DNA of 64,000 bases from an uncultured Spartobacteria bacterium. Its GTDB lineage: Bacteria; Verrucomicrobiota; Verrucomicrobiia; Chthoniobacterales; Chthoniobacteraceae. How positions within the stretch are numbered: position 1 is the first letter of the stretch; every line of letters starts with the position of its first letter. Below are positions 1,552 to 19,471 of this stretch, one piece after another. Under the pieces are notes generated by a model. That model saw nothing but the letters and a program-made list of their open reading frames with translations. It did not search any database and was not told where the DNA came from. A program made the translations under genes and the position numbers. Location: assembly GCA_903919125.1 (NCBI GenBank), contig CAIXGS010000004.1, positions 1 through 64,000 on the forward strand, read 5' to 3'.

Positions 1552-1659
1552 TTTCCCACTCCCCTACTCCCGCACCGTCGCATGGTTTCCGGCACCTAGG
1601 AAAGGCACTCAGGAAAATCCCCAAGGGATAACATAAGGCACACTCGCCCTTTGGCTGCA

Positions 1660-1744
1660 GACCGATTTTCACGGACTCAGGGGTGTACGGTTCACCCCGT
1701 GGAAACCGATCTCCGGGTTACGAGATCGGCAACTGGTTTGCCTT
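1660..1744 (+). promoter_or_regulatory. Structured 5' leader of the RCC1/RHS gene
   Basis: Three closely packed hairpins end immediately before the ATG at 1745. They are GGGGTG/CACCCC (1680-1698), CCGATCTC/GAGATCGG (1706-1729) and GGCAA/TTGCC (1728-1742). The last two share the GG at 1728-1729, so they may be mutually exclusive. ACCGAT also occurs twice (1660-1665 and 1705-1710), and either copy could pair with ATCGG at 1725-1729. No ordinary Shine-Dalgarno sequence is visible between the hairpins and the ATG. This could be a cis-acting translational switch or simply a stable leader. I could not match it to a known riboswitch class. Confidence 0.4.
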
Positions 1745-4700
1745 ATGAAAGTCTTCGCAGAATCGCGCACTTTTCGCGCTCTCCTCGTCATTGGTTTGAG
1801 CTTTCTGTTTCTCGTCTCTCAGACGCGAGCGCAACAGAACACTACTCCGACTTTGCCCAACATCAGCATTCCTAGTGGGACGTATACAACTCAGCAGCAG
1901 GTGTATATAAACACACAGGACGCCGGAGTCACGTTGCGCTACACGCTCAACGGAACGACCCCAACCGCTACGGATCTCCCCGTCCCCCCAGCCGCGCCGA
2001 TCCTCATTACCCAGTCTGGCACGCTGAAAGTTGCCGGCTTCTACGGCACATCCAGCGGCGCTGTCGCCACCGCGGTGTTCAACATCACCGGCCAAGCGAG
2101 CTCAGGAGCGCACAGTAGCGTCGTCCTAAAAAGTGATGGCAGCCTCTGGACTGCGGGTGACAATTCCACTGGGCAGCTGGGCAACGGGAACCTTGTGGCG
2201 GCGAGCTCGCCTGTGCAGGTGCCAAACCTCTCTGGATTTATTTCCGTGGCAAGCGGTTACTACCACGTCTTGGCGCTCAAAGGAGATGGCACCGTATGGG
2301 CGTGGGGCCTCAATGCGGACGGTGAACTGGGAAATGGAACCGCACTGAGCGTGTCAAACCGTCCTGTGCAAGTCACCAGTTTGAGCGGAGTGGTCGCGAT
2401 TGCAGCAGGGGCCTATCACAGCATGGCGCTCAAGAGTGACGGTACGGTTTGGGCTTGGGGCTTCAACGTGAGCGGCGCGCTGGGAACAGGGAACACATTT
2501 TCAAGCAATATTCCATTGCAGGTAAGCGGTTTAACTGGAATCAAGGCTATTTCCGCCGGTTATCTACACAGTCTTGCACTCAAAACGGACGGGACCATCT
2601 GGGTTTTCGGCAACAACACCGATGGCGAGCTTGCCCTTGGAAACTTGACTAATTCGCTAAGCCCACAGCAGGCCACGAGCCTGGGGAATATCGTAGCCCT
2701 AGCCGCGGGTCGCTTTCACAGCGTTTTTGTGAAAGGCGACGGCACCGTGTGGGCCTGCGGTTACAATGGACAAGGCCAATTGGGTAACAATTCCACCGCG
2801 AGCAGCCCCATTCCAGTACCGGTAACCGGCCTAACGGGAATCACATCAGTGAGCGCGGGGTTCTTCTTTAGCACCGCACTTAAAGCAAACGGCACGGTTT
2901 GGGCCTGGGGCGAAAACGCCTATCAGGAACTCGGCAACCTTTCGCTCAACAGCAGCACCGTGCCCGTGCAAATCGCCAATGTTAGCACCGCACTCCTCAT
3001 CACCAGCCAAGGTTATCACAGCATGGCCGTCCTCACCAACGGCTCGGTGCTCAGCTGGGGCGCAAACTTCAGCGGCGATTTCGGCACAGGAACGACAGCC
3101 ACGCAGACAGCGCCGATTGCGGTTCCAAGCTTGAGCAACATTAAATCCGTCTCGGGTGGCGGCTTTTTCTCACTCCTCGTCAAAAGCGACGGGACGGTGT
3201 GGAGCTGGGGCAACAATCCGGACGGCGAGCTTGGAAACGGCACGACGACTAGTGCGAATGTTCCGACGCAAATCCCCTCGCTCTCGACGGTCGCGCAAGT
3301 TGCCGCCGGGGGTTTTCACGGCGTGGCGCTCAAAACGAACGGAACCGTGTGGACTTGGGGCTACAACGGGTACTGCGAGCTGGGTAACGGCACACAGGTA
3401 AGCAGCCTTTTTCCAGTGCAAGTGACAAACCTCGCAAGCGTTACGGCTGTCGCTGCCGGGCAGGTGCACACGCTAGCGCTCAAGAGCGACGGCTCCGTCT
3501 GGGCTTGGGGATACAACGGTGACGGTGAATTAGGCAACGGGACCAGCAACAACCTGTTCGCCACTCCGACGCAAGTGTCGGGACTGAGCGGCGTCGTCGC
3601 CATTTGCGCCGGCTACTTTCATAGCATGGCTCTGAAGAGCGACGGCTCCGTGTGGGTCTGGGGCTCGAACTCCATTGGTCAACTTGGCAACGGCTCCACC
3701 CTCGCAAGTAGCGTGCCGATCAAAGTCGCCAGTTTGAGCGGCATCACCGCTATTGCAGCTGGGTTTTACCACAATTCAGCCCTTCGCGGGAGTGACAAAA
3801 CAGTGTGGTGCTGGGGCTATAATGCGGAGGGCGAACTTGGCAACGGTGGCCTTTCTACAGGTCTCGTGCCCACGCAAGTCGCTGGGCTGACGGGGGCAAC
3901 CTCCCTCTCAGGCGGCGCCTACCACACTTTTGCGTTCGCCGGTGGCAACGCTTATGGCTGGGGGTTTAACATGCATGGCCAACTCGGTAACGGGCTGAAT
4001 TTGGAAAACCGCACGACCCCTTCCGTAGTGCTCAATGCTGGGACTCTTCCCCTCACGGGAATCATTGCGGGAGCCTTTCATAGCTTTGGCACGACTTCCA
4101 ACCTCGCTCTGTACGGCTGGGGCAGCAACTTCAACGGCCAGTTGGGCCTCGGCAGCACTGGAGCGACTTATGCCCCAGTATTGTCCGGCTTCGTAGCCGT
4201 GGCGCTGAATCAGGCACCACCCGCCCCAAACAATCTGATCGTCAACAGTAACGGCGTAAACCAGGCGACTCTTACTTGGTCACAATCGGGCAGCCTCGCC
4301 CAAAGTTTCACCATCCAACAAAGCAACGACGGCGGCGGCACTTGGGTAAATGTTTCCACCATAGCAGGGAATCTCACCGCCTATGTAGTCACCAATATAC
4401 CCAGCGGCTCGAACACGAAATTCCGTATCATCGCGAACGGTAGCGTTTCCAGCTCCGAGGCTTGCGTTGCGGCATCTGCCCTCGTTGGGTTGCAAATCAC
4501 AGGAGGCACGCTGGCCCCCGCCACCCTCAGCTTTAGCGCCACCGTTTCAGCCGCCGCCGGTGCGATTTCCAAAGTGGAATTTTACGAGGGCGCCAAGCTT
4601 TTGGGCTCGCTCACCACTCCGCCATACACCGCCTCACTGCAAAACGTGATGGCTGGCCCTCATACCTTTACGGTCGTCGCTCGCAACGCAAATGGCATTG

Positions 4701-7700
4701 TCGGGCAGGGTTCGGCGGTAGTGACCGTCCTGATGCCGCCCGATCCGCTGGTGCAAAGCCGCTTTTCACGAGGCCCAGGCGTGGATCCGAACTTCCAGAC
4801 GTTCGTGCTCTCTGTGGACAGACTCGTCGGTATCGGACTGGAGCCGATGGGAAATAACGCGGCGAAATTCCCGCTCGGCTTGCCTTGGTTTGAACGGCTC
4901 AACATGCCGACGCTCTACCAAATCGCGAACACCAAACCGATCACCTATCCCAATGCATTTCAAAACCCAGTCGTCGCCTTCGGGGCCGCTGGTGGAGGAA
5001 CGCCTCTTTACATCAACCAAGCCTACCGGTTTGCCCTCGGTTCCGGCGGACAAACCAAAGATCCCAACTTCCTCGACTTCAGGATCTCCGTGTTCGCCAA
5101 ATCCCAATTTGCCACAGCCCAAAGCGGCGTAAACCCTGTTTACACCTGCACCGTTTCGCTACCCAAAAAAGGAACTGCTGACTGGAATGCCTTCGCCCAA
5201 TCGGGCTTCGTACGCAGCATTGACCTCACCGCAGCAGGGTATCCGCTAGTCACAAAAATTCAATTTGTCGCAGGAGCAACTGTTGCCGACCAATTCGGTC
5301 AGCAGGCCAGTTCCCCGTTTTTGCTCACGCACACTGCCGCTTCCTCCGCCTTTTGCTACCGCATCGACTACGCAGGCGCCGCCTTTGCCAACGGACAATT
5401 CGTCCCAATGGCTGCCAGCAACCCTGCCGCTTCCCCAACTTACGCCTACGCTTACACACTGGATTTCAGCGAGCGCGCCCCGTGGATTTCCACCTTCATC
5501 GCCCAACCCCACTTCGACTCGGTGACGATGCCCTCGGAATACGCGGGCAAATCGCTCAACGAACTCCTCAAAGTCAGCACCCCGCTCACCTACCAGTTCG
5601 CGCAGCCATCTCCTGAGCTGTCCTTATTGGACCGTAGCCCCGAACTGCGCGCCCATCCCGTTCTCGATAAATTCGTCGCAGACATGGGCGCCAACCCAAT
5701 TGCCCTCACGAATTACGTCTTCAACCAAATCCAACTGACCGACGCACTCAGTTACAACGACACCGGCGCGGTTAATGAAACATCCATCAACCCCGGCGGC
5801 GTGAACCGAAGCGCGCTTGCGACCTTTCTTGAAAAACAAGGGTCGCCCACCGAGCAATGCGCGCTGCTCATCTACCTGTTACGAAAAGCCGGCGTGCCCT
5901 GCGGTTACGTGTTTCCCACACACAACACCCTGCAAATGCTCGACTCTCGTATGAGCAAACTTTTGCGCATGCAATTGAAGGGAGCTGTGGACGCCTACGG
6001 AAATTCCAATGTCCCGCAACTGCTGAACGTGAACTACCCTTGGGTAGCGCTCTATTTCAACAACCAATGGGTCCACGTCTTTCCGTGGATGAAAGACACC
6101 TCGATTAGCGAAGGTTATAACCTCGCAGACTATCTGCCCACGGGCACTCAAACCGGCCTGCAATGGCTCCAAAAATACATCAATCGCGACTCCAAACTTT
6201 TAGGGCTCAGCGCGGAATTCGATAACCCAGGCAAACTGTACCCGTTGTTTGTTTACCAGCAGTTGGCGCTCAAGGGTATCTCCTTCAACGACGTGGGCGT
6301 GACCATCTCCGACCGACAGAACAACCGAGACGCTTGGAGCGATTTCCCGCAACCCTGGCAAGTCGCACCCGGCAGTCTCGCCGCGAGCAATTTGGTGGCA
6401 TCCCTCAGCGCAATTCCCAACCTATTTGACACCATCCAATGCCAAGTTTACAGCGACCGTAACAACAACGGAAAATATGACTTAGGCGAGCCAATCCTGG
6501 ATACTGGGACCCTGCGCGCCGTCGATTTGCACAATAGGCGACTCATGGTGAAAACCGTGAAAACAGGCCCCAGCGCGCATTCCCTTTTCCTCACGCTCGA
6601 GCCGCTTCGCCCTGGGACGTCAACCGTCACCGAACCGTTTCCCCTCAATGGCGAGGCCATCAACAAGCAGTCCGTCAGCGTCGCACTCGGCTCCACCGAT
6701 GACGCTCTGAACTTCCGCACCGTTTACAATCGCCACCGCACGCTCCCTTCAGGCTTCAGCGCGCCCGCTCAGGGGACGGCCTTTCTTGGTGTGAGCGACT
6801 CAAATCAAGTCATCGATGAACGTCCCTTGCGCAAAGGAGATATCGCCGTGCTTTGCCTTAATTACGGGAGGGTCACGCAAGAAATGCTCAACGTGCAGGC
6901 GCAAAACTTCTGGAGTGCGCAGCAAGCAATTCTAGCAAGTCCCACCACGGTCATGGATGCGGATGTCGCCGCTGGCACCCCGCTTTTGCTCTTGGGAATG
7001 ACCTATTACAAGCAGGTCTCGGACTTCCGCGCCTGGCTGGAGCCGTTGCAGAAACAGAATGTGGTGTCCTTTTTCGCGCATGGTTTTTCCAAAATGAGCC
7101 CCCAGCGCAATCCCGACGGCTCCCTTCCCAACAGCGGGGACATCAATCCCATTTACCCCAACGTCGACATGATGTTCCAGCGCATGGCCTCCGCTGGAAA
7201 CGGCACGTTGCACCCAGATTCCGGGTTGCCCGACGCCACCACCGCAAACGACTGGCTCTATCTGCTCATCGGCGAGGTTTCCGCGCAAGAACACACGGTC
7301 ATTAACAAGTTCTTCAACGTGAGCGACACGGCCTCCACCGTCCACCTTCTGCATGCCGCCCAAACTCAAGGCAAAGGGATTGTGTCACTGAACAGCCAGA
7401 ATTACGCGAGCGCTGGGAGCGTCAGCTACACACTGAACGGAGTCACCAAAACGCTTCAGGCGTGGGCCGGCCCTTCGATGTGGAGCAGCATCACCCAGTT
7501 GCTCACCCCTTACAGTAGCGCCACCAATACGGGCAATCTAATGTCCGATTACGCTCTAGTTTATGTGACGCCCGGGCCTATTGTCTGCGCTAACAAAGCG
7601 TACCAAGGCGTGGGTGCGTTTATTTTCAATCCGGGCTATTCCGCGGCAGCGCTGATTTCGGGTAACATGCTGAATGTCCCGCTCAATGGTGGTTATGGAC

Positions 7701-10700
7701 AATCACCATCGCCACTGGATGTCAGTTTTTACTCCAACACCAAAGCTCAAAACTACACGCTCACGCTTAATGGAGATACGCCGACGTTTGATTTGAAACT
7801 CGTTTCAAACATCGATAACGGCAGCAAAAACATTGCCCTCTCCAGTGCCTATATTCTGGCCCTCAGCAACGGCACGACGATTCAAAGCGTCACCCAACAA
7901 AACGCGGTGACACTGGGGGCCTCCGCACTCAACGTCACATCGGTGAACACGGGGTTTGTAAAGACCGGCGATTTGACGTTTGGAGTCGATAACATCGGAT
8001 GGATTGGCGCCACCTCGTCGTTTGCAGATAACGAAGCTAAAATATCCAAGATGGTCGCGGATCCTGTCAATGCGGTGACCGGTGGATTTTATTTCAATGA
8101 AACCGATCTCCTGATCCCAGGTCCCCTCCCCATTCAACTCACTCGCAATTACGACAGTTTGAATCTCGCCAACAATGAATTCGGGGCGGGCTGGAAGATG
8201 GGATATTTCTCTTATCTATCGGTTGCGACGGATTCTAATGTGATTTACGCGGCGGAAATGGATGGAAGCGTCGTGGCATATCGCCTCCAGACGGGGTCGA
8301 GCACACGTTGGATACCGACGGCTGCCGACAATCCTAATCTTTCCAATCAACAGGGCGATTCGATGGGATCGGTTTACAATCTGTTTAATAATCGAATCGA
8401 TAAAGTAATCAATTCAGGGACAGTTACCTACACATTGACTGGTGTGAACGGCAGCGTGCGTACTTTTGTCGTCGCCTCTTATCCCAGCCCCGGTGCCAAA
8501 GGTCTCACACGGCAGCGGCCTTACCTTCAAAAATGGGTGGATCCGCAGGGCAATACCCTGAATTTCACCTTCGGCAATAATCCGCTCCAGCCCGACTTCG
8601 GTTTCCTGAACCGCATCGCCTCTTCCAACGGAAACTTCATCCAACTGAATTACGACATTTACGGCCACATCATTTCAGCCAACGCCGCCGACGGTCGCCG
8701 CGTATTCTACGGCTACGACTCCTTTGGAGACCTCGTAAGCGTCACCCGCCCAGACGCATCACTCATCCATTACACCTACTCTCACAAGCCAAATGCGGGC
8801 GCACTCACCACAGGATTCTACTCTGAACACCTGCTCACCCAAGAAGCCAAGCCCGCCGGACGCCTGTTGGTGAACGTCTACGACGCTCAACGCCGCGTCA
8901 CGCAACAGGCGGCGACGGTTGGCCCCAACTCCGCCCTCACCACCAACGCATCGTTCCAATACACCAACTCGAAAAACCCCGACGGCACACTCACCGGCAC
9001 CACCCTCGTCGCCGACGCCTTCAAACGCTCCACGCGCTACGACTACGCCGGAAGCCAAATCATCAAGGTTACCGATCCGCTCAATCAGACGGTTCAAACG
9101 GTCTGGTACGCCCCGGGCGACAGCACCGCCGGAGCCTATCAGCGCAGTCTCAAACAACATATCGACAAGCGCGGCCTGAGCGTTCTCTACAAATACGACG
9201 CCAAAGGCAATCTCATCGAAACTGCTACTACCGGCAATCTCACGGGTTCAGGAAGTTCCACGGCCGTCCAGACCATCACATACAACGCGCTCAACCTCCC
9301 CACTCAAATCACCGAGCCCAACGGCAACTTCAAGAAGCTCCTCTACACCAGCCCCATTTCACCATACCTCCTCACCTCGCTCCAAAGGTTCACGCCCACG
9401 GGGCTCGCCTCCCAAACCGACACCAACTACACCAATGTTGGGGTCGCGGGCACCGTCCCATTCGCCAACGGACTTGTCCAAAAAGTGACGCAAGCACTCG
9501 GAACGCCCGAGCAATCCAGCGTCAGCTACACCTACAATAACAACGGGTTTCCCACCTCAGAAACCCGCCCCACCGGCACCAACGATCCTGCCGTTTTCTT
9601 CGCCATGTCCTACAATCTCCGTGGGCAACTGGTAAAAAAGACCGATGCCGCTGGACAATGGACCGGCTTCGCCTACGACGACCTCGGCAACGGTATTTGG
9701 CAGGAGCGCCACGATGCAGCGGGCGCGTTGGTGGCTTGGAATTACCAGTATTACAACGCCAACGGCGAAATCGAATGGACCCAAGGCTCCCGCTACAATC
9801 CTGACGACTACACCATGACGCGTTACGACGGAGCCGGGCGCGTCCTTGAAACGCTTCAGTGGCGCAGTGAGGCGATCCCCAACGGCTCAGGCGTTCAGGC
9901 CGCAGCAGGTGACGCAGGAATCGCCACCACCTCCAACCAGTTTGACGCCTTCGGAAATCTCACCAAAACCCTTAATCCTCGGGGCACAGCCACCACCATG
10001 AGCTACGATGCCATCGGACAGTTGCTCACCTCGCTCCAGAGTGATGCTTCGGGTGGATCTCTTTCCACCGTCTCGTTCACCTATGAGCCGGGCGGTAAAG
10101 TCTCCAAGCAAACCAATCCGCTGGGTGGCGTGAGTCTGTTTTCTTACACGCAAACAGGCCAACCGCTCACCCGTCAAAACGCCGATGGAACCACCCAACA
10201 ATGGCTCTATCTCACCGATGGCAGGCTCTCGAAGGAGACTTTCCCCAACGGCTCAAACCGCACCTTCGCCTACGACGACTTCAATCGGACCATCACCACC
10301 TCCCTGCGGGACACTGCCGGAAACCTGCTCGCCACAGAGATTCAGACGTTTGATCGCCGCGGAAATCTTCTCCAAAAATTGGACGCAGAAGGCTTCGTCA
10401 CCAGCACAGCCTACGACGCCCTCAACCGCGTGGTTTTCATCGCCGGACCTCCCTCCGTCAACAATTCCGCCCAACAAAAAGTCACGCACCATTACGACGC
10501 CGCCGGCCTACGCCGCACAGCGACCAACGCGCTGGGCGAACAGACCACGACCCTCAGCGACGCTGAAGCGCGTCCTGTCAGTATCGAGATCGCGAGCGCC
10601 AACGGCACCGTAGTCCGCTCAACTTCCTACGTGTACGCCGCGGATCATCAATCCGTGGTCAGCGTCCAAGGATTGCCCGGTACCAACTCCACCACTTTCA

Positions 10701-13246
10701 CCGATTTGCAGGGCAAACCCGTCCTCGTTTGGAACGCGGACGGCACAGGCACCATTTCTCGTTATGACGTCGTCGGAAATCTCATCAGCGCCACCGATGA
10801 ACTGGGGCGCACCACCCTGTTTGTTTATGACGGCCTCAACCGCCTCATCCAGCAGACCCTTCCCGACGGCGGCTCCCTCTCCTTCGCCTACGACGCCGCG
10901 GGCAACCTGCTCAAACGCCAAATGCCTGGGAACGTGATCTGGAGCGCCACCTACGACGCAGCCTCGCGCAAACTCGCCGAAAAGTTAATCCAGAACGCCT
11001 CCGTCACTCGCGCCTCCTCTTACGCCTACAACCTGACCGGCAACGGCGTAGGCCAACTCGCCACATTTACCGATCCACGCGGCATTGTGAGTAGCGTCAG
11101 TTACGACGTGTTGGGGCGCCAGACACAAGTCGTCGCGCTGGATTCCTCCACCGCCCAGGCCGGAGTCACGCGCACCTTCGGTTACGATCGACGGAATCTA
11201 CTCAAACAAATCGACCAAACTTACCAGAACCCAGCACTGAGCCCCTCCACAAGCGTCAAGCGAACCTACGACGGTTATGGAGCGTTGCTCACCGAGCAGA
11301 CGTACATTGCCGGTCTCCTCAAGGACACTTGGCAACAAACCCGCGACAGTGCTGGAAGACGCATCTTGCTCACAGAACTCAATAATCCCGCGCTGCCCTT
11401 TACTTATAAATATCAGGCGGACGGCAACCTCATCGAGGCCGACTTCAACAACGGCGCCTACTGCTACGAGTACAAAATCGACGGCCGTCTCTATTCGCGA
11501 AACACTCCGTTACACGCCCAAGGCCTCAGTCGCGACTGGAGCGGGCGCATTGTAGAAGCGAGCGAGTACGTTGGCGCGACTCTCGTGTTGAATGAAAAAA
11601 TCGCATGGAGGGCAGATTCCACTCAGAGCGCCAACGCCATCACGCGTATCGGAGGCAGCTCCTGGAGCGAGAGCCGCAGTTACAACTACGACCTGCGAGG
11701 CAGACTGATCAGCGAGAGCTTCGCAGCAAGGGCCGGGGTCACGGGCAGTGCTGGTTACCAGTTTGACGGGGGTGCACCCGGTGGAATTGGGGTGCGCACG
11801 GGCGTGACGTTAGCCGGAAATTTGAGTGGGATTCAGACGGGAACCTACAACGCGTTCGCGCAGTTAAGCGGTCTGAGTGCCTCGGGCAACTTGAGTGGTG
11901 CGCTTGCAAATCCGCTGACTCAGACGTTCGACTCAGCTGGAAATGTAATCACCCGACTGCGTGCGGGCGGAAACGACGCATTGAGCTGGGACGCTCTGGG
12001 GCGGCTGGTCGGCCTCGTGCGGCGCAATGGCAGCAACTCGGGCTTGAACTGGAGTGCGGTTTACGACGGACTCGGGCGCAGGTTGCAAACCACACAGCAA
12101 ACAGTCACAGGCGGCGCACTCAGCGGTTCGGCACTGACGCTCAAGTCGGCTTTTGATCCGGAGGTTGAGTTTTTAGAAGTGTCAGTAACCCTCGGCGCCA
12201 CCCGCAACTGGTTGGTACACGGCCCCGATCTCAACGGCGTTTACGGTGGGCTGCAGGGAACCGGCGGCCTCGAGGCTGTCTACAACGCGTCCACTGGGTT
12301 GACCACCGGCATCGTCTCAGACAACTCCGGTCACGTTGCGGCAACCTTCACGAGCAACGGCCTCTTCACATGGAACCCCGTGGCGTCCACCGGTTACGGG
12401 ACTGCCCCAGGGAGCGTTCCCGCCCCACCGCTCGACGCGAGCCGTGACTTTGCGAGCATTCTGGGCTGGCGCGGCCACTATTTGGATTGCACTGGGTTCT
12501 ACGCAATGGGCATGCGCTACTACGACCCCGAAAGCGGCACCTTCTTAAGCGCCGACCCCATGGGCCATCCCGCGAGCCTCTCCCTATACGACTATTGCGC
12601 CAGCGACCCCATCAACCGCGTCGACCCCGACGGTCGGGTGATGAAGCAAGTAGGGAACAGCGCAATTACTCAGCAGCAGAACTTTATGAGTGGACAACAG
12701 ACCTATGCCAACACAACTGGAGTGCTCGCTTCTCCCATTCCGCTGTTAGAGACCTATCTTTGGCCGTCAACAGCAACGACTGAGGCGGAACAGTCGGTTG
12801 GATCCGAGCGATTTAAGAATTTTTTACCCTTCATTTTCAAATGGGAAAATGTGTATGATAAAAAAGGAAATATTGTTGCTGAAAATGTATCAAACGACAA
12901 GGGTGGCGTAACTAAGTACGGCATCGACTCTGCATCTCACCCGGGAGTTGATGTCCGAAACCTCACGGAGCGAGGGGTGGTAAAAATTTATTGGAAAGAA
13001 TGGACTCAGTATAATATTGAATCAAAACCAAAGCCGCTCGGTGAAGTTTATTTTAATGCAAAAGTTAATGGTGGCGGTGATTCTCTGTTGAAAGCATCGG
13101 GCGGCGACGCGAATCTCTTCCTTGAACTTCAAGAAAAACGTTATCAAGCCATCGTTGACTATAATCCAAGTCAGCAGAGATTTTTAGATGGCTGGTTAAA
13201 CAGAACTAAAGACCTAAAAGAATACCTTAAAATTAAAAGTAAGTAG
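1745..13246 (+). CDS. Giant exported RCC1-transglutaminase-RHS protein with C-terminal GH108-like muramidase tip (polymorphic toxin candidate)
   Basis: A 3833-residue secreted protein. In order it shows: a signal peptide (cleavage near SQTRAQQ); a chitobiase-C-like beta-sandwich (~38-95); fourteen RCC1 repeats of the type DGTVWAWGxNxxGELGNG (~115-820, enough for two seven-bladed propellers); FN3 (~822-905); a bacterial Ig-like domain (~912-995); a transglutaminase-like fold with candidate Cys1372, His1444 and Asp1451; a DUF6531-like entry (~2106-2170); many YD/RHS repeats (~2240-3590); and the RHS core YYDPESGTFLSADPMG...VDPDGR ending near 3631. The last ~200 residues match GH108 muramidase plus PG_binding_3: Glu3701 in KWEN, DKGGVTKYGID at 3718-3728, and NPSQQRFLDGWLNR near the end. 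The DNA becomes visibly AT-rich from about 12.8 kb, as expected for an exchangeable toxin tip. Two LprI-like genes follow directly. Architecture is confident. Toxin function is inferred. Confidence 0.88.
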   Translation: MKVFAESRTFRALLVIGLSFLFLVSQTRAQQNTTPTLPNISIPSGTYTTQQQVYINTQDAGVTLRYTLNGTTPTATDLPVPPAAPILITQSGTLKVAGFYGTSSGAVATAVFNITGQASSGAHSSVVLKSDGSLWTAGDNSTGQLGNGNLVAASSPVQVPNLSGFISVASGYYHVLALKGDGTVWAWGLNADGELGNGTALSVSNRPVQVTSLSGVVAIAAGAYHSMALKSDGTVWAWGFNVSGALGTGNTFSSNIPLQVSGLTGIKAISAGYLHSLALKTDGTIWVFGNNTDGELALGNLTNSLSPQQATSLGNIVALAAGRFHSVFVKGDGTVWACGYNGQGQLGNNSTASSPIPVPVTGLTGITSVSAGFFFSTALKANGTVWAWGENAYQELGNLSLNSSTVPVQIANVSTALLITSQGYHSMAVLTNGSVLSWGANFSGDFGTGTTATQTAPIAVPSLSNIKSVSGGGFFSLLVKSDGTVWSWGNNPDGELGNGTTTSANVPTQIPSLSTVAQVAAGGFHGVALKTNGTVWTWGYNGYCELGNGTQVSSLFPVQVTNLASVTAVAAGQVHTLALKSDGSVWAWGYNGDGELGNGTSNNLFATPTQVSGLSGVVAICAGYFHSMALKSDGSVWVWGSNSIGQLGNGSTLASSVPIKVASLSGITAIAAGFYHNSALRGSDKTVWCWGYNAEGELGNGGLSTGLVPTQVAGLTGATSLSGGAYHTFAFAGGNAYGWGFNMHGQLGNGLNLENRTTPSVVLNAGTLPLTGIIAGAFHSFGTTSNLALYGWGSNFNGQLGLGSTGATYAPVLSGFVAVALNQAPPAPNNLIVNSNGVNQATLTWSQSGSLAQSFTIQQSNDGGGTWVNVSTIAGNLTAYVVTNIPSGSNTKFRIIANGSVSSSEACVAASALVGLQITGGTLAPATLSFSATVSAAAGAISKVEFYEGAKLLGSLTTPPYTASLQNVMAGPHTFTVVARNANGIVGQGSAVVTVLMPPDPLVQSRFSRGPGVDPNFQTFVLSVDRLVGIGLEPMGNNAAKFPLGLPWFERLNMPTLYQIANTKPITYPNAFQNPVVAFGAAGGGTPLYINQAYRFALGSGGQTKDPNFLDFRISVFAKSQFATAQSGVNPVYTCTVSLPKKGTADWNAFAQSGFVRSIDLTAAGYPLVTKIQFVAGATVADQFGQQASSPFLLTHTAASSAFCYRIDYAGAAFANGQFVPMAASNPAASPTYAYAYTLDFSERAPWISTFIAQPHFDSVTMPSEYAGKSLNELLKVSTPLTYQFAQPSPELSLLDRSPELRAHPVLDKFVADMGANPIALTNYVFNQIQLTDALSYNDTGAVNETSINPGGVNRSALATFLEKQGSPTEQCALLIYLLRKAGVPCGYVFPTHNTLQMLDSRMSKLLRMQLKGAVDAYGNSNVPQLLNVNYPWVALYFNNQWVHVFPWMKDTSISEGYNLADYLPTGTQTGLQWLQKYINRDSKLLGLSAEFDNPGKLYPLFVYQQLALKGISFNDVGVTISDRQNNRDAWSDFPQPWQVAPGSLAASNLVASLSAIPNLFDTIQCQVYSDRNNNGKYDLGEPILDTGTLRAVDLHNRRLMVKTVKTGPSAHSLFLTLEPLRPGTSTVTEPFPLNGEAINKQSVSVALGSTDDALNFRTVYNRHRTLPSGFSAPAQGTAFLGVSDSNQVIDERPLRKGDIAVLCLNYGRVTQEMLNVQAQNFWSAQQAILASPTTVMDADVAAGTPLLLLGMTYYKQVSDFRAWLEPLQKQNVVSFFAHGFSKMSPQRNPDGSLPNSGDINPIYPNVDMMFQRMASAGNGTLHPDSGLPDATTANDWLYLLIGEVSAQEHTVINKFFNVSDTASTVHLLHAAQTQGKGIVSLNSQNYASAGSVSYTLNGVTKTLQAWAGPSMWSSITQLLTPYSSATNTGNLMSDYALVYVTPGPIVCANKAYQGVGAFIFNPGYSAAALISGNMLNVPLNGGYGQSPSPLDVSFYSNTKAQNYTLTLNGDTPTFDLKLVSNIDNGSKNIALSSAYILALSNGTTIQSVTQQNAVTLGASALNVTSVNTGFVKTGDLTFGVDNIGWIGATSSFADNEAKISKMVADPVNAVTGGFYFNETDLLIPGPLPIQLTRNYDSLNLANNEFGAGWKMGYFSYLSVATDSNVIYAAEMDGSVVAYRLQTGSSTRWIPTAADNPNLSNQQGDSMGSVYNLFNNRIDKVINSGTVTYTLTGVNGSVRTFVVASYPSPGAKGLTRQRPYLQKWVDPQGNTLNFTFGNNPLQPDFGFLNRIASSNGNFIQLNYDIYGHIISANAADGRRVFYGYDSFGDLVSVTRPDASLIHYTYSHKPNAGALTTGFYSEHLLTQEAKPAGRLLVNVYDAQRRVTQQAATVGPNSALTTNASFQYTNSKNPDGTLTGTTLVADAFKRSTRYDYAGSQIIKVTDPLNQTVQTVWYAPGDSTAGAYQRSLKQHIDKRGLSVLYKYDAKGNLIETATTGNLTGSGSSTAVQTITYNALNLPTQITEPNGNFKKLLYTSPISPYLLTSLQRFTPTGLASQTDTNYTNVGVAGTVPFANGLVQKVTQALGTPEQSSVSYTYNNNGFPTSETRPTGTNDPAVFFAMSYNLRGQLVKKTDAAGQWTGFAYDDLGNGIWQERHDAAGALVAWNYQYYNANGEIEWTQGSRYNPDDYTMTRYDGAGRVLETLQWRSEAIPNGSGVQAAAGDAGIATTSNQFDAFGNLTKTLNPRGTATTMSYDAIGQLLTSLQSDASGGSLSTVSFTYEPGGKVSKQTNPLGGVSLFSYTQTGQPLTRQNADGTTQQWLYLTDGRLSKETFPNGSNRTFAYDDFNRTITTSLRDTAGNLLATEIQTFDRRGNLLQKLDAEGFVTSTAYDALNRVVFIAGPPSVNNSAQQKVTHHYDAAGLRRTATNALGEQTTTLSDAEARPVSIEIASANGTVVRSTSYVYAADHQSVVSVQGLPGTNSTTFTDLQGKPVLVWNADGTGTISRYDVVGNLISATDELGRTTLFVYDGLNRLIQQTLPDGGSLSFAYDAAGNLLKRQMPGNVIWSATYDAASRKLAEKLIQNASVTRASSYAYNLTGNGVGQLATFTDPRGIVSSVSYDVLGRQTQVVALDSSTAQAGVTRTFGYDRRNLLKQIDQTYQNPALSPSTSVKRTYDGYGALLTEQTYIAGLLKDTWQQTRDSAGRRILLTELNNPALPFTYKYQADGNLIEADFNNGAYCYEYKIDGRLYSRNTPLHAQGLSRDWSGRIVEASEYVGATLVLNEKIAWRADSTQSANAITRIGGSSWSESRSYNYDLRGRLISESFAARAGVTGSAGYQFDGGAPGGIGVRTGVTLAGNLSGIQTGTYNAFAQLSGLSASGNLSGALANPLTQTFDSAGNVITRLRAGGNDALSWDALGRLVGLVRRNGSNSGLNWSAVYDGLGRRLQTTQQTVTGGALSGSALTLKSAFDPEVEFLEVSVTLGATRNWLVHGPDLNGVYGGLQGTGGLEAVYNASTGLTTGIVSDNSGHVAATFTSNGLFTWNPVASTGYGTAPGSVPAPPLDASRDFASILGWRGHYLDCTGFYAMGMRYYDPESGTFLSADPMGHPASLSLYDYCASDPINRVDPDGRVMKQVGNSAITQQQNFMSGQQTYANTTGVLASPIPLLETYLWPSTATTEAEQSVGSERFKNFLPFIFKWENVYDKKGNIVAENVSNDKGGVTKYGIDSASHPGVDVRNLTERGVVKIYWKEWTQYNIESKPKPLGEVYFNAKVNGGGDSLLKASGGDANLFLELQEKRYQAIVDYNPSQQRFLDGWLNRTKDLKEYLKIKSK

Positions 13247-13257
13247 TATAAAAACCT

Positions 13258-13644
13258 ATGCGTATAAAATTAATTTTCCTAGGAATTTTAAACTTAACAA
13301 TGCTGCCACACTCGGCAAATGCTCAGAGCCAAGGCGTCATGAATCAGCAAATCGCAGTTGATCTAAAAGACGAAAATGCGCGTCTACAAAATGTATATGA
13401 AAAACTGTTTTCCTCGATAGGCAATACAGGAAAAGAGAAGCTTTCTACCGCACAAAAAAGCTGGGAAATTTATCGTGACTCTGAAGCTGACTTTGAAGCT
13501 GATAAAACCGAAGGAGGGTCTATGCGGCCTGGAGTTCTAATGGGGGTTAAGTTACGTTTGACACAGGAGAGAATAATCCTCCTAAGCAAGGAACTTTCTT
13601 TCGTAAAAGAAATGGATAAAATATTAAATAAAAAAAACAAATAA
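13258..13644 (+). CDS. Secreted DUF1311/LprI-like protein, candidate immunity to the muramidase tip
   Basis: A 128-residue protein with a signal peptide (MRIKLIFLGILNLTMLPHSANAQ) that starts only 11 bases after the stop of the RHS gene. The mature part has the DUF1311 layout seen in LprI-type lysozyme inhibitors: an N-terminal helix (ENARLQNVYEKLFS), the AQKSWEIYRDSEADF motif, then GGSMRPG and LRLTQERI. The family cysteines are absent. DUF1311/LprI proteins include a known mycobacterial lysozyme inhibitor, which fits a periplasmic protein protecting against the GH108-like tip encoded just upstream. The region is AT-rich like the toxin tip, suggesting the two moved together. Immunity is inferred from position and family; no direct evidence is visible. 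Confidence 0.75.
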   Translation: MRIKLIFLGILNLTMLPHSANAQSQGVMNQQIAVDLKDENARLQNVYEKLFSSIGNTGKEKLSTAQKSWEIYRDSEADFEADKTEGGSMRPGVLMGVKLRLTQERIILLSKELSFVKEMDKILNKKNK

Positions 13645-13737
13645 TATAACAAATCAAAAACACATATCAAAAAAGTAATCCAAGCGCTCAATCCCTGATT
13701 TAGCCCTCAACTTCTTGTACTGCATGCCCCACAGTTT

Positions 13738-14103
13738 ATGCAAAACCCGATTAAGTCTCACCTGTATTTTGCCGCAATTGTGCTTAACTTTAGCGTGATG
13801 AGTTGTGGGTTGGTGTGCGCCCAATCTGAGGCTACAAGTCTCGCGGAATCTGCATACAAACATTCAGATATCCAGCTTAATGAGGTGTATAAAAAAATCA
13901 TTAATAGGATCCCTCCCAATGCTAAGCAAGGTTTCGTGGAATCTCAGCGCGCATGGATTGCATTCCGAGATCTGGATGCAAAATGCCGAGCCGGGATAGC
14001 CTCACAAGGAGGAAGCTCGTACTCCACCGATTACTTGGCCATTTTAACGGAGTTGACCGAGGAAAGGGTCGCCCATCTAAAAACACTCTTACTCGCCTTG
14101 TGA
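13738..14103 (+). CDS. Second secreted DUF1311/LprI-like protein, candidate immunity paralogue
   Basis: A 121-residue protein with a hydrophobic N-terminus (SHLYFAAIVLNFSVMSCGLVCAQ). It could be a signal peptide, or possibly a lipoprotein signal around MSCG. The mature part is a clearer DUF1311 match than its neighbour: DIQLNEVYKKIINRIPP, then SQRAWIAFRDLDAKC, then GGSSYSTDYLAILTELTEERVAHL. It lies 93 bases beyond the first LprI-like gene, in the same AT-rich block. The two copies are clearly diverged, so this is either an old duplication or an orphan immunity gene kept from a previous toxin tip, a common pattern behind RHS genes. A role as lysozyme inhibitor is inferred from the family. Confidence 0.75.
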   Translation: MQNPIKSHLYFAAIVLNFSVMSCGLVCAQSEATSLAESAYKHSDIQLNEVYKKIINRIPPNAKQGFVESQRAWIAFRDLDAKCRAGIASQGGSSYSTDYLAILTELTEERVAHLKTLLLAL

Positions 14104-14396: not shown

Positions 14397-14432
14397 TGGA
14401 AAAGGCCGTAGCATCCCTACCGCGACGCTCCC

Positions 14433-14864
14433 CTACTCCACCCGCACTACGCCCTTTTTGAGAATGACGTTCGCATACAAGGACGTCTCCGAGGTCGCCA
14501 CGATGGCGTACGCCGCACGAGCCCTTTCGTAAAAGGCGTAACGCTCGAGCTTCGCGATGCCTGCATCCGGCTGGATGCGGTCCACAATCCCTCGATACGT
14601 CGCCCAAATCGTTGGCTGATAGCTGTCGCCAGGGACCAAATCCATCAGAGAGACTGGTTCTCTCACGTAACTATCCAACGGAAACAGCGCCAGCACCGCC
14701 TCCAACAACTCAGGAACGCCTGAACCCGCGCAATGCACCAAATTTCTAGCGTGGCTTGCGGCGGGAAAGTTGGCGTCTGCGAGCACAATTTCGTCGCCAT
14801 GCCCCATCTCCATAAGAATCTTCAACAAATCGGCGGTGAGCAAAGGGGAAATACCTTTTAACAT
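14433..14864 (-). CDS. fucU: L-fucose mutarotase, FucU/RbsD family
   Basis: A protein of about 143 residues when started at the ATG giving MLKGISPLLTADLLKILMEM. A more upstream start at 14921 would add 19 residues unlike the family. The N-terminus matches FucU closely: MLKxISPLL, MGHGDEIVLADANFPAASHA with the conserved catalytic-site His, then LDSYVREPVSLMDLVPGD and a C-terminal ATSETSLYANVILKKGVV. FucU interconverts alpha and beta anomers of L-fucose and related sugars in the cytoplasm. It stands alone here, without a visible fucose operon, facing the palindrome cluster and convergent with the LprI-like genes. It probably serves the sugar-rich lifestyle suggested by other genes in the window. 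Confidence 0.87.
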   Translation of the reverse strand: MLKGISPLLTADLLKILMEMGHGDEIVLADANFPAASHARNLVHCAGSGVPELLEAVLALFPLDSYVREPVSLMDLVPGDSYQPTIWATYRGIVDRIQPDAGIAKLERYAFYERARAAYAIVATSETSLYANVILKKGVVRVE

Positions 14865-15006
14865 AAACAACTGGAAAATGTGGCTGCGAGAAAGGATCCA
14901 ATTCTGGAACATTGCAATCATCTGCTAACATCAAGGTAGCGCGCAAGCTTGGCTCTGAGTTTCAGCCGTTTTTTGCGCATCCCCTGACGCCACCATTTCG
15001 CCGTTA

Positions 15007-15825
15007 ATGCCCCTCCCGCCATCGCACTGCGTCATCCTTCCAAGCTACAACTCGGGCCGCTGGCTGGCGCCAACACTCGCCTCAGTCCTCGCGGCAGGCG
15101 TCCCCATCTTTCTGGTCATCGACGGCTCCACGGATCAAAGCGAAGGTTGCGTCGAAGGGTTTCTTGGGCACAAGACACCGCTCAACATACTGCGTCTTGC
15201 TGAAAATCGGGGCAAAGGGGCCGCCGTACTCGAAGGGCTTGAGGCAGCCTCTCTTGCGGGCTTTTCCCATGCGCTAGTTTTTGACTCGGACGGACAGCAC
15301 GAGCCCCGAGACATCCCAGCGATGCTCTCACTTTCCCTCGCGCACCCAGAAGCGATGATTCTCGGCGCTCCGCACTTCGGGCCCGACGCTCCCTTAATTC
15401 GCGTTCTAGGGCGGCGTATCGCAAATTGGTGGACGAACCTTGAAACGCTTTGGGGCGGGATCCAGGACTCTCTGTTTGGGCTCAGGATTTATCCTGTGGC
15501 CGAGTCGCTCAAAGTCCTCCATTCGATATCCGGAGGAAGACGGTTTGATTTTGAAACCCAGCTTTGTGTCAGACTTTATTGGTCTGGCGTTCCAGCGCTT
15601 AATTATAGTTCAAAGGTGCTTTATCACCCGAAAGCAGACGGAGGGATTTCTCATTTTAACTATTGGAGAGACAATATTCTTTTGATTCGCACCCATTCTC
15701 ATTTGTTAATGAAAGCAATTTTCGCTTTACCAATGCTCTGGAGATTGCGGCGCAAAAACCGCTGCTACAGAGAATATTCGGCGGCATTAGCCCAAGAAGT
15801 TTGCCACCACACCAAATGCGAGTGA
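15007..15825 (+). CDS. Glycosyltransferase family 2, DPM1/polyprenol-type
   Basis: A 272-residue GT-A fold glycosyltransferase. The N-terminus CVILPSYNSGRWLAPTLASVL is the nucleotide-sugar-binding start of GT2. AENRGKGAAVLEGL is the conserved Asn-Arg-Gly-Lys-Gly segment and DSDGQHEPRDIP the DxD-type metal site. RFDFETQLCVRLYWSGVPAL is the usual acceptor-side region. A C-terminal helix near LLMKAIFALPML could touch the membrane. Such enzymes move sugars onto polyprenyl phosphate or lipid carriers. The family is sometimes found beside lipid A acyltransferases, but none is visible here. No operon partner is evident. Exact donor and acceptor cannot be told from sequence. Confidence 0.85.
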   Translation: MPLPPSHCVILPSYNSGRWLAPTLASVLAAGVPIFLVIDGSTDQSEGCVEGFLGHKTPLNILRLAENRGKGAAVLEGLEAASLAGFSHALVFDSDGQHEPRDIPAMLSLSLAHPEAMILGAPHFGPDAPLIRVLGRRIANWWTNLETLWGGIQDSLFGLRIYPVAESLKVLHSISGGRRFDFETQLCVRLYWSGVPALNYSSKVLYHPKADGGISHFNYWRDNILLIRTHSHLLMKAIFALPMLWRLRRKNRCYREYSAALAQEVCHHTKCE

Positions 15826-15992
15826 GCGGCGCAGATTATAAATATAAATCCAAACGCATAGAACAACCGTGCAGGTTCACTGCGCTAGTCTACGGATTTC
15901 ATCTAAAGATCACCGCTGATCTGGGTAATGAGGGCTTACTGATGCAGTGCAGCTACCTTCCCAATTCGCCGCGCCACAGACGGTCCGCCAGG

Positions 15993-16024
15993 CGCGAGTG
16001 AAATGCTGGCAAAGCTCACTCGCG
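15993..16024. other. Inverted repeat between GT2 and hydrolase genes
   Basis: CGCGAGTGA (15993-16001) and its exact reverse complement TCACTCGCG (16016-16024) are separated by 14 bases. No T tract follows, so it is not a standard terminator. It sits about 60 bases before the hydrolase ATG and could be an operator or mRNA hairpin. Confidence 0.35.
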
Positions 16025-16081
16025 TCAGTTCAAAACCATACCTCTCGTTTCCCTCATCCCCTTCCTAATTTCCGCGCACTT

Positions 16082-19000
16082 ATGAATCCCCCCCGCCGTC
16101 TCCCGGTTTACGCCACCCTCGTTTTACTTTCCGTCTCTGTATTGTTTGGGAACCAGTCTGTTGCACAGAACCCCCAATCCGGGAAGCTGGCTCCCGTACT
16201 GCAGCCCTTTGTGGAAAATCACACGCTTGCCGGAGCCGTCGTGCTCGTCGCAGATCCCGAAAAAATCCTCGCTGCCGAAGCCGTCGGTTGGGCAGACATC
16301 GCCGCAAAGAAACCCATGCGCACCGATTCGGTTTTCTGGATCGCCTCGCAGTCCAAACCGATCTCAGCCGCCGCCCTAATGATCTTGGTGGACGAGGGCA
16401 AGGTGGACGTCAACGACCCTGTGGAAAAATACCTGCCGGAATTTAAAGGGCAACAAATCGACCTGAGCGCCGACCCCGCCCATCCGCAGCTAAAGGCGCC
16501 CAATCACGCCATCCTTGTGCGCGAAGTGCTTAGCCATACCAGCGGGTTGCCTTTCAAATCCGCAATCGAGGAACCAACGCTGGATTTGCTGTCTTTGGAG
16601 ACGCGAGTGAAGAGCTATGCGAAGTTGCCGCTACTGTTTGAGCCGGGAATGAAGTCGAAGTATTCCAATGCAGGGATCAACACAGCGGGACGCATCGTGG
16701 AAGTGGTCAGCGGACAGAGCTTCGAGACGTTTTTGGAGGAGCGCATTTTCAAGCCCTTGGGCATGACGGACACGACGTTTTATCCGAACAAAAGCCAGAT
16801 TGAACGGCTTGCGAAGGCCTACAAACCCAATGCCGCCAAGGACAACCTCGAGGAAATCACCATAGGCCAGCTCAAGTACCCTTTGGACGATCCGGATCGG
16901 CGCCCCATGCCTGCTGGAGGGCTATTTTCGACGGCAAACGACCTGTCGCTTTTCTATCGAATGATGGCCAATAGAGGCATCCTAAACGGCAAACGGATCC
17001 TATCAGAAAAAGCCGTGCAAACCATGACATCAGATCAGTCTGGCGAAGCGAACTCGCACTATGGATTCGGGTTCGGCACGGATGGAAAGTCCTTCACTCA
17101 TGGCGGAGCCTACGGCACCAATTCCCGCTTCGATCTCCAGAGCAAGATCGTCTCTGTGTTTCTGGTTCAACACGCGGGCTGGGCGGGTAACGGCAAGCAA
17201 ATCCTGCCTGAATTTCAGAAGGCGGCGACGGAGGCCTACGGAATAAAAGTCGCCTCAGGGCCAAATACAGTCGCGCAACCCCTGGTGGTCGGCATTTTAA
17301 GTGCGCCTGAGGCAAAATCGAGCAGTCCGATTGGCGAGGATTGGGGCGCGTACTCGCTTGTGCCGTTCAGTGCGCAGGCGTTCGTACTCGAGGCGGTTGG
17401 TGGAGCGACGCAAGACAGTGTTATTTCCATTAACAAGCCGGAGGGAACGCCCAATCAAAAGTGGATCATCGCGCCGAAGGGCGACAACTGGTTTGCGATT
17501 AAACCCTCGTCCAGTTCCGAGCTCGCGCTAGCGGTCAAAAAGGGCGAGACCAACACTGGCTCGAACATCGTGCTCGAGAAAGACACCGGTGAACCGTGGC
17601 AACTGTGGTCGCTCAAAAAAAATGAGAACCTCAGTTACACCCTGACTCCCAAGCACGCTCCCGGCATGGGGTTGGACCACCTCGGCGGCAAGCAGACACC
17701 CGGCGCGCGGATCGATCTTTGGAAGAACACAGCCAACGATCCGCATCTCCAATGGCTGCTCAAACCTCTCGCCGGAAGCTCTCTCCCGCTAGCAAAAGAA
17801 GAAGAAGTAGCAGCAAAATATCAACCACCTGCAATCAAGCCGGAGGAGATTCTGCCCGGTACCACCAAGCAGTTCACCTTCACCCAGAGCCAGATTTTTC
17901 CGGGCACGACGCGCGAAGTCACCGTGTTTATTCCAGCGCAATACGACGGGAGCAAACCTGCGTGCGTCTACGTAAAAACCGACGGCTACAATCCCCGCGA
18001 GAAGACGCTCATGGAGACGATGATCGCCACGAAGGAGATGCCCGTCACCGTCGGCGTGTTTGTGCGCCCAGGGGAACTCAGCCCGCCGATGAAAGGCACG
18101 ATGGGACGCAGAAACCGTGATTTGGAATACGACGGCGTGAACGATCTGAACGTGCGTTTTCTGGTCGAGGAATTGCTCCCTTACGTGGCGAAGGAGTTTG
18201 GTCTCAACCTTTCGACCGATGGCAATGATCGCTGTATGTCCGGCGGAAGCAGCGGCGGTATCGCGGCGTTTGTGGCGGCGTGGAACCGGCCTGAGGCGTT
18301 CAGTCGTGTATACGCAGCGAGCGGCAGTTTTGTCGCTTTTCGAGGCGGCCACGAGTTCCCGACGATGGTGCGCAAGTTTGAGGCGAAGCCCATCAGAGCG
18401 TTTCTCACCACCGCGACTCGTGACATGGAAAACTGCGCTGGGGACTGGTTTTTGGTCGATCAGGAGATGGATAAGGCGCTGAAATTTTCCGGTTACGATT
18501 TCCAGTTTCGTATTGTAGACGGACGCCATGTTGCCGGTTACGCCGAGAACTATCAGGAAGCGATGGCGTTCCTCTGGCGCGGTTGGCCTGCACGAGTGAA
18601 AGCCGGCCCAAGCGCGCCGCGTGCGCAGGAAATCCTAGTGCCGGGCGCAGACTGGCAACTCCTCGCTGAGGGTTTTAAGAGCACTCGCGGGCCTGCGTGC
18701 AATGCGGCGGGGGAAGTGTTCTTTGCCGACACATCAGCCAACAAGATCCACCGCATCGGACTCGATGGTAAAGTCACGGAGTTCGTCGCAGATTCAGGCG
18801 CCGCGCACTGTCTGACTGTCGCTGCCGACGGTACAATTTTTACCATTTCGGAAAAGAGCGGCAAACTCATGAGCTACGACGACGCTGGCACACCGAAAAC
18901 TGAGCTGGACGGCATCCTTGGACACTCGATTTTAGCGCGCCCCGACGGCGGACTTTATGTCACGACTAACGGTGAGAAAACGGCGGAAGTCGGGAGCGTC

Positions 19001-19471
19001 TGGTTCATCAAGGACGGTAAAAAGACGCGTGTAGATAACGGGCTGAAGTTCGCCACCGGCATGGCTTATCGCCCCGATCAATGGCTGCTTTCCGTGGCGG
19101 AAGGGCACTCCAAATGGGCCTGCAGTTATCAGATGAACGCCGACGGTTCGCTCACGAATAAAGAGCGCTTCTTTCATCTCCACGTCTCCGACTGGGACGA
19201 CGACGCAGGCGCGGAATCCATGTGCTACTCGCTCGAAGGCCGCCAATTCATCGCCACTCGCAGCGGCGTCCAGATCAGCGCCGACGATGGTCCGACGCAA
19301 GTGATCCTTCCCGTGCCGGACCGCAGTCGAGTCACAGGCGTATGCCTTGGCGGCAAAGACATGGACACATTATTTGCATTTTGCGGAAACAAAATCTGGA
19401 TCCGCAAAATCCAACAACACGCGATGGGTCCTTTCACGCCTTGGACAAAAGTGAATGGCTCGAAGCTTTGA
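16082..19471 (+). CDS. Secreted four-domain hydrolase: beta-lactamase-type serine hydrolase, ricin-like domain, esterase, SMP-30-like propeller
   Basis: About 1129 residues, started at the ATG whose product begins with a clear signal peptide (PVYATLVLLSVSVLFGNQSVAQ); a longer ORF begins at 15947. Residues ~30-410 are a class C beta-lactamase/esterase fold with S89QSK92, Tyr194-Ser-Asn and H340GG. A ricin-type beta-trefoil with NQKW and LWSLKK segments follows (~430-580). Residues ~600-850 resemble enterochelin-esterase-like alpha/beta hydrolases, with SGGSSGG at 720-726 carrying the nucleophile serine (723 or 724). The C-terminus (~860-1125) is an SMP-30/gluconolactonase-like propeller (SANKIHRIGLDGKVTEF, NADGSLTNKERF). 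The likely role is extracytoplasmic breakdown of an esterified or lactone-containing carbohydrate. The ricin domain would give sugar binding. The substrate is unknown. Confidence 0.85.
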   Translation: MNPPRRLPVYATLVLLSVSVLFGNQSVAQNPQSGKLAPVLQPFVENHTLAGAVVLVADPEKILAAEAVGWADIAAKKPMRTDSVFWIASQSKPISAAALMILVDEGKVDVNDPVEKYLPEFKGQQIDLSADPAHPQLKAPNHAILVREVLSHTSGLPFKSAIEEPTLDLLSLETRVKSYAKLPLLFEPGMKSKYSNAGINTAGRIVEVVSGQSFETFLEERIFKPLGMTDTTFYPNKSQIERLAKAYKPNAAKDNLEEITIGQLKYPLDDPDRRPMPAGGLFSTANDLSLFYRMMANRGILNGKRILSEKAVQTMTSDQSGEANSHYGFGFGTDGKSFTHGGAYGTNSRFDLQSKIVSVFLVQHAGWAGNGKQILPEFQKAATEAYGIKVASGPNTVAQPLVVGILSAPEAKSSSPIGEDWGAYSLVPFSAQAFVLEAVGGATQDSVISINKPEGTPNQKWIIAPKGDNWFAIKPSSSSELALAVKKGETNTGSNIVLEKDTGEPWQLWSLKKNENLSYTLTPKHAPGMGLDHLGGKQTPGARIDLWKNTANDPHLQWLLKPLAGSSLPLAKEEEVAAKYQPPAIKPEEILPGTTKQFTFTQSQIFPGTTREVTVFIPAQYDGSKPACVYVKTDGYNPREKTLMETMIATKEMPVTVGVFVRPGELSPPMKGTMGRRNRDLEYDGVNDLNVRFLVEELLPYVAKEFGLNLSTDGNDRCMSGGSSGGIAAFVAAWNRPEAFSRVYAASGSFVAFRGGHEFPTMVRKFEAKPIRAFLTTATRDMENCAGDWFLVDQEMDKALKFSGYDFQFRIVDGRHVAGYAENYQEAMAFLWRGWPARVKAGPSAPRAQEILVPGADWQLLAEGFKSTRGPACNAAGEVFFADTSANKIHRIGLDGKVTEFVADSGAAHCLTVAADGTIFTISEKSGKLMSYDDAGTPKTELDGILGHSILARPDGGLYVTTNGEKTAEVGSVWFIKDGKKTRVDNGLKFATGMAYRPDQWLLSVAEGHSKWACSYQMNADGSLTNKERFFHLHVSDWDDDAGAESMCYSLEGRQFIATRSGVQISADDGPTQVILPVPDRSRVTGVCLGGKDMDTLFAFCGNKIWIRKIQQHAMGPFTPWTKVNGSKL

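Follow-up and report, generated by a model that had tools for sequence, protein, structure and literature searches.

A candidate muramidase-tipped RHS toxin locus with adjacent LprI-type genes in an uncultured Spartobacteria bacterium

The window analysed here is a stretch of 64,000 nucleotides (contig CAIXGS010000004.1, positions 1 to 64,000) from an uncultured Spartobacteria bacterium. Positions 1745–13246 of the forward strand, on which all features of the locus lie, encode a giant protein of 3833 residues in which Pfam and NCBIfam matches, together with comparison with orthologues, identify RCC1, Ig-like, transglutaminase-like and RHS regions, consistent with a polymorphic-toxin scaffold. 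The N-terminus, read from the sequence, has a charged start, a hydrophobic stretch and a likely cleavage site near TRA/QQ, features typical of a Sec-type signal peptide (residues 1–29, positions 1745–1831, predicted by eye). It is followed by an RCC1 β-propeller region of 14 Pfam stretches (E 6e-143; 2102–4189, limits approximate), and thus the signal-peptide-bearing RCC1/RHS protein with fourteen RCC1 repeats described in the initial annotation is confirmed. The transglutaminase part of that description is more qualified; the segment is visible at residues 1350–1445 (5792–6079) but scores below the Pfam cut-off (18.3 versus 23 bits). The giant protein also contains a chitobiase-C-like and an Ig-like domain. 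The region at 8060–12634 comprises DUF6531, YD/RHS repeats (12 RHS_repeat stretches, 184.7 bits; Pfam places these and DUF6531 before residue 3631) and an RHS-associated core at residues 3570–3630 (NCBIfam Rhs_assc_core, 62.6 bits). RHS repeats and an RHS-associated core thus precede a C-terminal tip, the arrangement by which Rhs polymorphic toxins are recognized. Directly before the tip lies the motif DPMG-X19-DPDGR (12554–12637), which resembles the pair of DPxG motifs, of aspartyl-protease type, that mark the release site of the tips in known Rhs proteins (PMC8636562). Both DPxG motifs are present in the giant protein and in much of its family, although their spacing is 19 residues compared with the known 17–18. 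Further along the window (15947–19471) a 1174-residue protein combines a β-lactamase-fold domain with a ricin-type lectin, an esterase and SGL-like domains.

The 202 residues beyond the core (residues 3632–3833, positions 12638–13243), here termed tip A, are probably a GH108-type muramidase, as judged from its sequence relationships. Tip A matches Glyco_hydro_108 at 29.0 bits (curated Pfam cut-off 21.2) and the PHROG endolysin family phrog_315 with an E value of 1.3e-19. A PG_binding_3-like stretch, also proposed earlier, does give a match, but one below the Pfam cut-off (16.6 versus 24.6 bits). Homologues displaying 36–51% identity are stand-alone endolysin-like genes, some on contigs in IMG/VR and others in genomes from the same family; a first scan of genome contigs with tip A alone as the query returned no match. 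Alignment with related phage and prophage-like endolysins revealed that tip A retains every invariant position (E70, D87, G89, G90, T92, K93, G95 and D97 in alignment A1), including the block D-x-GG-x-T-K-x-G-x-D. The putative catalytic acid, Glu3701 (12845–12847), is invariant in 10/10 homologues aligned. In the active-site motif tip A reads E-N-V where E-G-G is usual, and several homologues likewise lack EGG; compared with many endolysins the tip also contains a three-residue gap and has a short C-terminal region. A profile built from the alignment finds the solved GH108-type proteins 2ikb, 2is5, 7dnp, 6v3z and 2nr7, with E values of 1e-18 to 1e-7 for 2ikb, 7dnp and 6v3z. In the AlphaFold2 model the first 51 or so residues are predicted to be disordered, while pLDDT exceeds 90 over most of the predicted folded domain (12803–13234), whose best PDB match is SagA from Brucella (7dnp; probability 1.00, E 1.3e-3, TM score 0.62 normalized by target). 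As the fold search by itself is modest, the GH108 assignment is carried by the profile and active-site evidence. Together these data bear out the earlier proposal of a GH108-like tip containing Glu3701.

Two small genes encoding exported LprI/DUF1311 proteins follow the giant gene. LprI-1 (13258–13644; 128 residues) begins 11 bp past the toxin stop codon, whereas LprI-2 (13738–14103; 121 residues) is separated from LprI-1 by a gap of 93 bp, and so the view that both genes follow at once holds for the first and not for the second. Their assignment to LprI (PF07007) is secure at 45.8 and 60.1 bits, respectively, against a cut-off of 22, in agreement with the initial annotation; both N-termini read as signal-peptide-like, and both proteins are bare LprI domains with no match to MliC. 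In the assembly the giant gene is the only RHS gene and its tip the only GH108 match, while the genome contains eight LprI matches, two of which are the genes directly 3′ of the giant gene. As the sole GH108 match, the sole RHS gene and two of the eight LprI matches all adjoin, the grouping goes beyond chance, and a chance neighbourhood was rejected. Base composition changes along the locus, with a GC content of 57% in the core, 42% in the tip, 38% in LprI-1 and 47% in LprI-2. The same drop, with a higher AT content in the tip and the genes behind it than in the core, is displayed by all three genus members tested (the window, G009 and G001).

The exchange of the tip is illustrated by comparison with the orthologue in G009, a genome of the same genus, in which the core region is 91% identical. 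At the DNA level (blastn) the two loci are 84% identical over window positions 1609–12639, an alignment that ends just past the DPDGR codons, so that the motif is the exact recombination junction between the two genes. Identity returns at 13736–14101 (78%), 2 bp before LprI-2, and again at 14428–15761 (84%). The intervening segment (12640–13735), comprising tip A, LprI-1 and the intergenic DNA, is not common to G009 although its flanks are ∼84% and ∼78% identical, respectively. LprI-1 is absent from G009, where a different tip (tip B) is followed, 10 bp behind, by a single LprI gene, the LprI-2 orthologue. As identity stops at DPDGR and returns before LprI-2, the exchanged cassette consists of tip A and LprI-1, and LprI-2 belongs to the common flank. 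The earlier view of the three genes as one unit is therefore only partly upheld; the tip and LprI-1 were exchanged together but LprI-2 was not part of the cassette. No Pfam family matches tip B above threshold (PG_binding_3, 22.3 versus 24.6 bits). Tip B does, however, share 57% identity with a portion of a phage endolysin, its profile matches that of tip A with 94.5% probability, and its model finds matches in 2ikb and 7dnp. By these sequence and model comparisons tips A and B are predicted endolysin-type muramidases of one superfamily that lie far apart in sequence.

A profile search with the RHS core returned 30 named loci, almost all of which carry the label of Verrucomicrobiota or one of its subgroups, together with further genomes. 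Among the 25 complete relatives, the window included, the tips beyond the D-x-DGR junction differ, and a small gene lies close behind most of them. Three tips are recognizable nucleases (two Endonuclea_NS_2 and one Colicin-DNase/WHH), and the genes downstream of these are SUKH/SMI1 proteins that lack a signal peptide. Displaced pieces are also evident. L148 has a complete RHS gene with a small gene beside it and, downstream of both (12730–13473), a displaced RHS tip that starts with a DPDGR junction of its own. In L046 (14877–15962) an RHS core fragment, ∼67% identical in DNA to the core of the window, lies downstream of both the G001 toxin and the lipoprotein gene that putatively confers immunity to it. 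The varied tips, downstream small genes, displaced tip and core fragments and AT-rich tip regions support the view that this is a polymorphic toxin family. In L154 and L162, from two distant verrucomicrobia, an uncharacterised tip type with no Pfam match is shared at 63% identity, and the lipoprotein-like genes that come after the two copies are related to each other; tip and gene form a second candidate pair of periplasmic toxin and immunity protein. The combination of RCC1 and RHS, which had been noted as unfamiliar, is not unique to the window; the two are fused in the genus of the window, and in two relatives a stand-alone RCC1-repeat gene immediately precedes the RHS gene (L163, 3423–9245; L148, 2447–5200). 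This arrangement suggests that RCC1 propeller and RHS protein act together also as separate proteins.

We conclude, with a probability of roughly 0.75, that the window contains a muramidase-tipped polymorphic RHS toxin locus in which LprI-1 is the cognate immunity protein and LprI-2 acts against tip B or against both tips. Exchange of the tip at a conserved junction, SUKH genes behind nuclease tips, LprI genes solely behind muramidase tips and the low GC content of the region all support the toxin-immunity reading put forward in the initial annotation. We infer enzymatic activity, tip cleavage, delivery, binding and protection along the following lines. The giant protein would be exported by its Sec signal peptide, with the RCC1 propeller, Ig-like parts and RHS shell presumably carrying and presenting the tip, which would probably be released at DPMG-X19-DPDGR. 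The tip would then cut the glycan strands of a competitor's peptidoglycan as a GH108-type N-acetylmuramidase, with Glu3701 as the likely catalytic acid. LprI-1, which would have come in with the tip, most likely neutralizes it in the periplasm of the producer by direct binding. LprI-2 would have been present before, or beside, the exchange, and may guard against the muramidase tip of sister strains or against both tips. Its continued selection is indicated by a dN/dS of 0.106 for the mature part, a value close to that of the giant protein (0.099) and consistent with maintenance by purifying selection.

The role of LprI-2 is the point on which the strongest rival differs. LprI-1 alone may be cognate to the muramidase tip, with LprI-2 the orphan of an earlier tip-B-like cassette that protects only against sister strains carrying tip B, and we consider this a serious contender, somewhat short of an even chance. 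It is consistent with the position of the LprI-2 orthologue immediately behind tip B in G009, with an exchanged segment that holds only the tip and LprI-1, and with the displaced tips and core fragments of L148 and L046. Comparison of the window with G009, however, detected no remnant of tip B between LprI-1 and LprI-2, while purifying selection on LprI-2 is compatible with either reading. A bolder variant of the preferred toxin-immunity reading, possible but doubtful, is that LprI-2 provides broad-range immunity, a bare DUF1311 domain blocking two very different endolysin-derived muramidases.

A further explanation is that the LprI proteins have a periplasmic role, in cell-wall housekeeping or of a chaperone-like kind, and lie downstream of the toxin gene by happenstance. 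This is unlikely, although LprI is a common exported family and several of its contexts agree with it. In several genomes of the order (L184, L187 and L190) exported LprI genes sit between pyrB-like and pyrC-like genes, a housekeeping-type setting. LprI-type genes of the order also occur in caspase clusters. One such cluster belongs to the same genome as the window (L015, contig C70, 3079–15600); here two LprI domains form the N-terminal part of a 1422-residue protein that ends in a caspase (Peptidase_C14), and two free LprI genes flank an 823-residue caspase-domain protein. In this cluster the role of LprI may be a different one, linked to proteases. Inhibition of lysozyme by some LprI/DUF1311 proteins, which the initial annotation took as known, has indeed been demonstrated for Mycobacterium tuberculosis LprI, but there the activity is credited to an additional MliC domain, while ScwA from Salmonella, which consists of LprI only, gives no lysozyme protection and controls MltD levels (PMC7933661). 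For these reasons little weight can be placed on the Pfam name 'lysozyme inhibitor' as evidence for function. Against a housekeeping role, LprI lies behind both muramidase-tipped RHS genes and behind 0/23 of the other complete relatives (p about 0.003, in a sample that is not phylogenetically independent). As LprI-2 is common to both loci by descent, this support amounts to one common pairing and one separate association, that of LprI-1. Also against it, the exchanged low-GC cassette includes LprI-1, the position and export of the proteins suit immunity genes, and LprI proteins have been reported, and proposed as immunity proteins, beside peptidoglycan-hydrolase effectors of type VI secretion systems (T6SS; PMC12135965, PMC8867033).

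The association was also sought outside the RHS family. LprI accompanied none of 85 viral loci encoding endolysins homologous to the tip and none of the scanned stand-alone homologues in bacterial genomes, and LprI as a routine endolysin companion was thus rejected. In the reverse direction, a scan of other LprI loci in the order showed no enzyme of the tip A or tip B type near any of them. For plasmid-borne LprI homologues (58 records) five contexts, four of them annotated, were inspected, and none placed LprI beside a toxin or muramidase; annotated phages yielded a single unannotated fragment.

Alternatively, the giant protein may be a self-acting wall-remodelling or surface-anchoring protein with a role in growth, predation or biofilm formation, in which LprI regulates the muramidase tip. 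The presence of RCC1, Ig and transglutaminase-like parts points to a surface structure, and no T6SS was found; the sheath component VipB/TssC has no match in the assembly, which is 95% complete, and on this basis a T6SS effector was rejected. The explanation is nevertheless improbable, as varied tips within one family, including nucleases with SUKH immunity, and the exchange of tips between close relatives are hallmarks of conflict toxins and not of proteins with a housekeeping role in remodelling. Although the closest homologues of the tip are phage or prophage-like endolysins, the accidental fusion of a prophage endolysin gene to the RHS gene, giving a protein that does not function as a toxin, is highly improbable, since the join coincides exactly with the junction of the relatives, sister genomes carry two different endolysin-type tips at that point and the active-site residues of the tip are intact.

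The preferred reading, a muramidase-tipped toxin with LprI-type immunity, has counterparts among known systems. A lysozyme-like effector of Pantoea (Carobbi 2022) is reportedly grouped with T6SS peptidoglycan-hydrolase effectors that have LprI/DUF1311 neighbours. The locus resembles the secreted Rhs/YD polymorphic toxins (Zhang et al. 2012, PMC3482391; PMC8636562) in its RHS shell, junction motif and variable low-GC tips, in the immunity gene directly downstream and in the displaced tips of relatives. It departs from classical Rhs proteins in possessing a Sec signal peptide, an RCC1 propeller and a transglutaminase-like region in place of PAAR, VgrG or other T6SS parts, in its DPxG spacing of 19 and in its GH108/endolysin-type muramidase tips. 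The 2012 survey includes a FlgJ-like glucosaminidase toxin, while the terms 'muramidase' and 'DUF1311' were absent from its text in a term search (PMC3482391). WHIX effectors (PMC12135965) and the LysM/LprI pair of Salmonella Dublin (PMC8867033) likewise couple a peptidoglycan-cutting domain to an adjacent exported LprI protein of proposed immunity function. These, however, are T6SS effectors, in contrast to the window protein with its GH108-type RHS tip and two LprI genes, one of which was kept across the tip exchange. In the Xanthomonas pair X-TfeXAC2609/X-TfiXAC2610 (PMC10933484) a lysozyme-like effector is also held in check by an exported inhibitor, although the families differ from those of the window, comprising a GH19 enzyme and a PliI-like inhibitor with T4SS delivery. 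Tip A has the active-site residues and the predicted fold of GH108/phrog_315 endolysins, Brucella SagA (7dnp), NMB1012 (2ikb) and Sen1395 (6v3z), but these are stand-alone enzymes, whereas the domain in the window is an RHS tip with LprI neighbours. Finally, the PF07007 domain is common to the LprI proteins of the window, M. tuberculosis LprI and Salmonella ScwA, with the additional MliC domain of the M. tuberculosis protein setting it apart from the bare LprI domains described here.

The widespread LprI/DUF1311 domain owes its name to a protein that carries a second inhibitor domain, and may or may not inhibit peptidoglycan-cutting enzymes by itself. The window and G009 loci constitute a compact natural experiment on this point, with two muramidase tips and two LprI proteins, one of them common to both. 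If LprI-2 does have a broad range, the RHS gene could swap muramidase tips while the immunity gene stays put, and the LprI domain itself, without MliC, would be settled as a muramidase inhibitor. The locus documents phage-endolysin-type domains as tips of RHS toxins. It belongs to a large family of signal-peptide-bearing RHS proteins in Verrucomicrobiota in which tip and immunity protein appear to be matched by compartment, with exported LprI proteins for cell-wall cutters and cytosolic SUKH proteins for nucleases.
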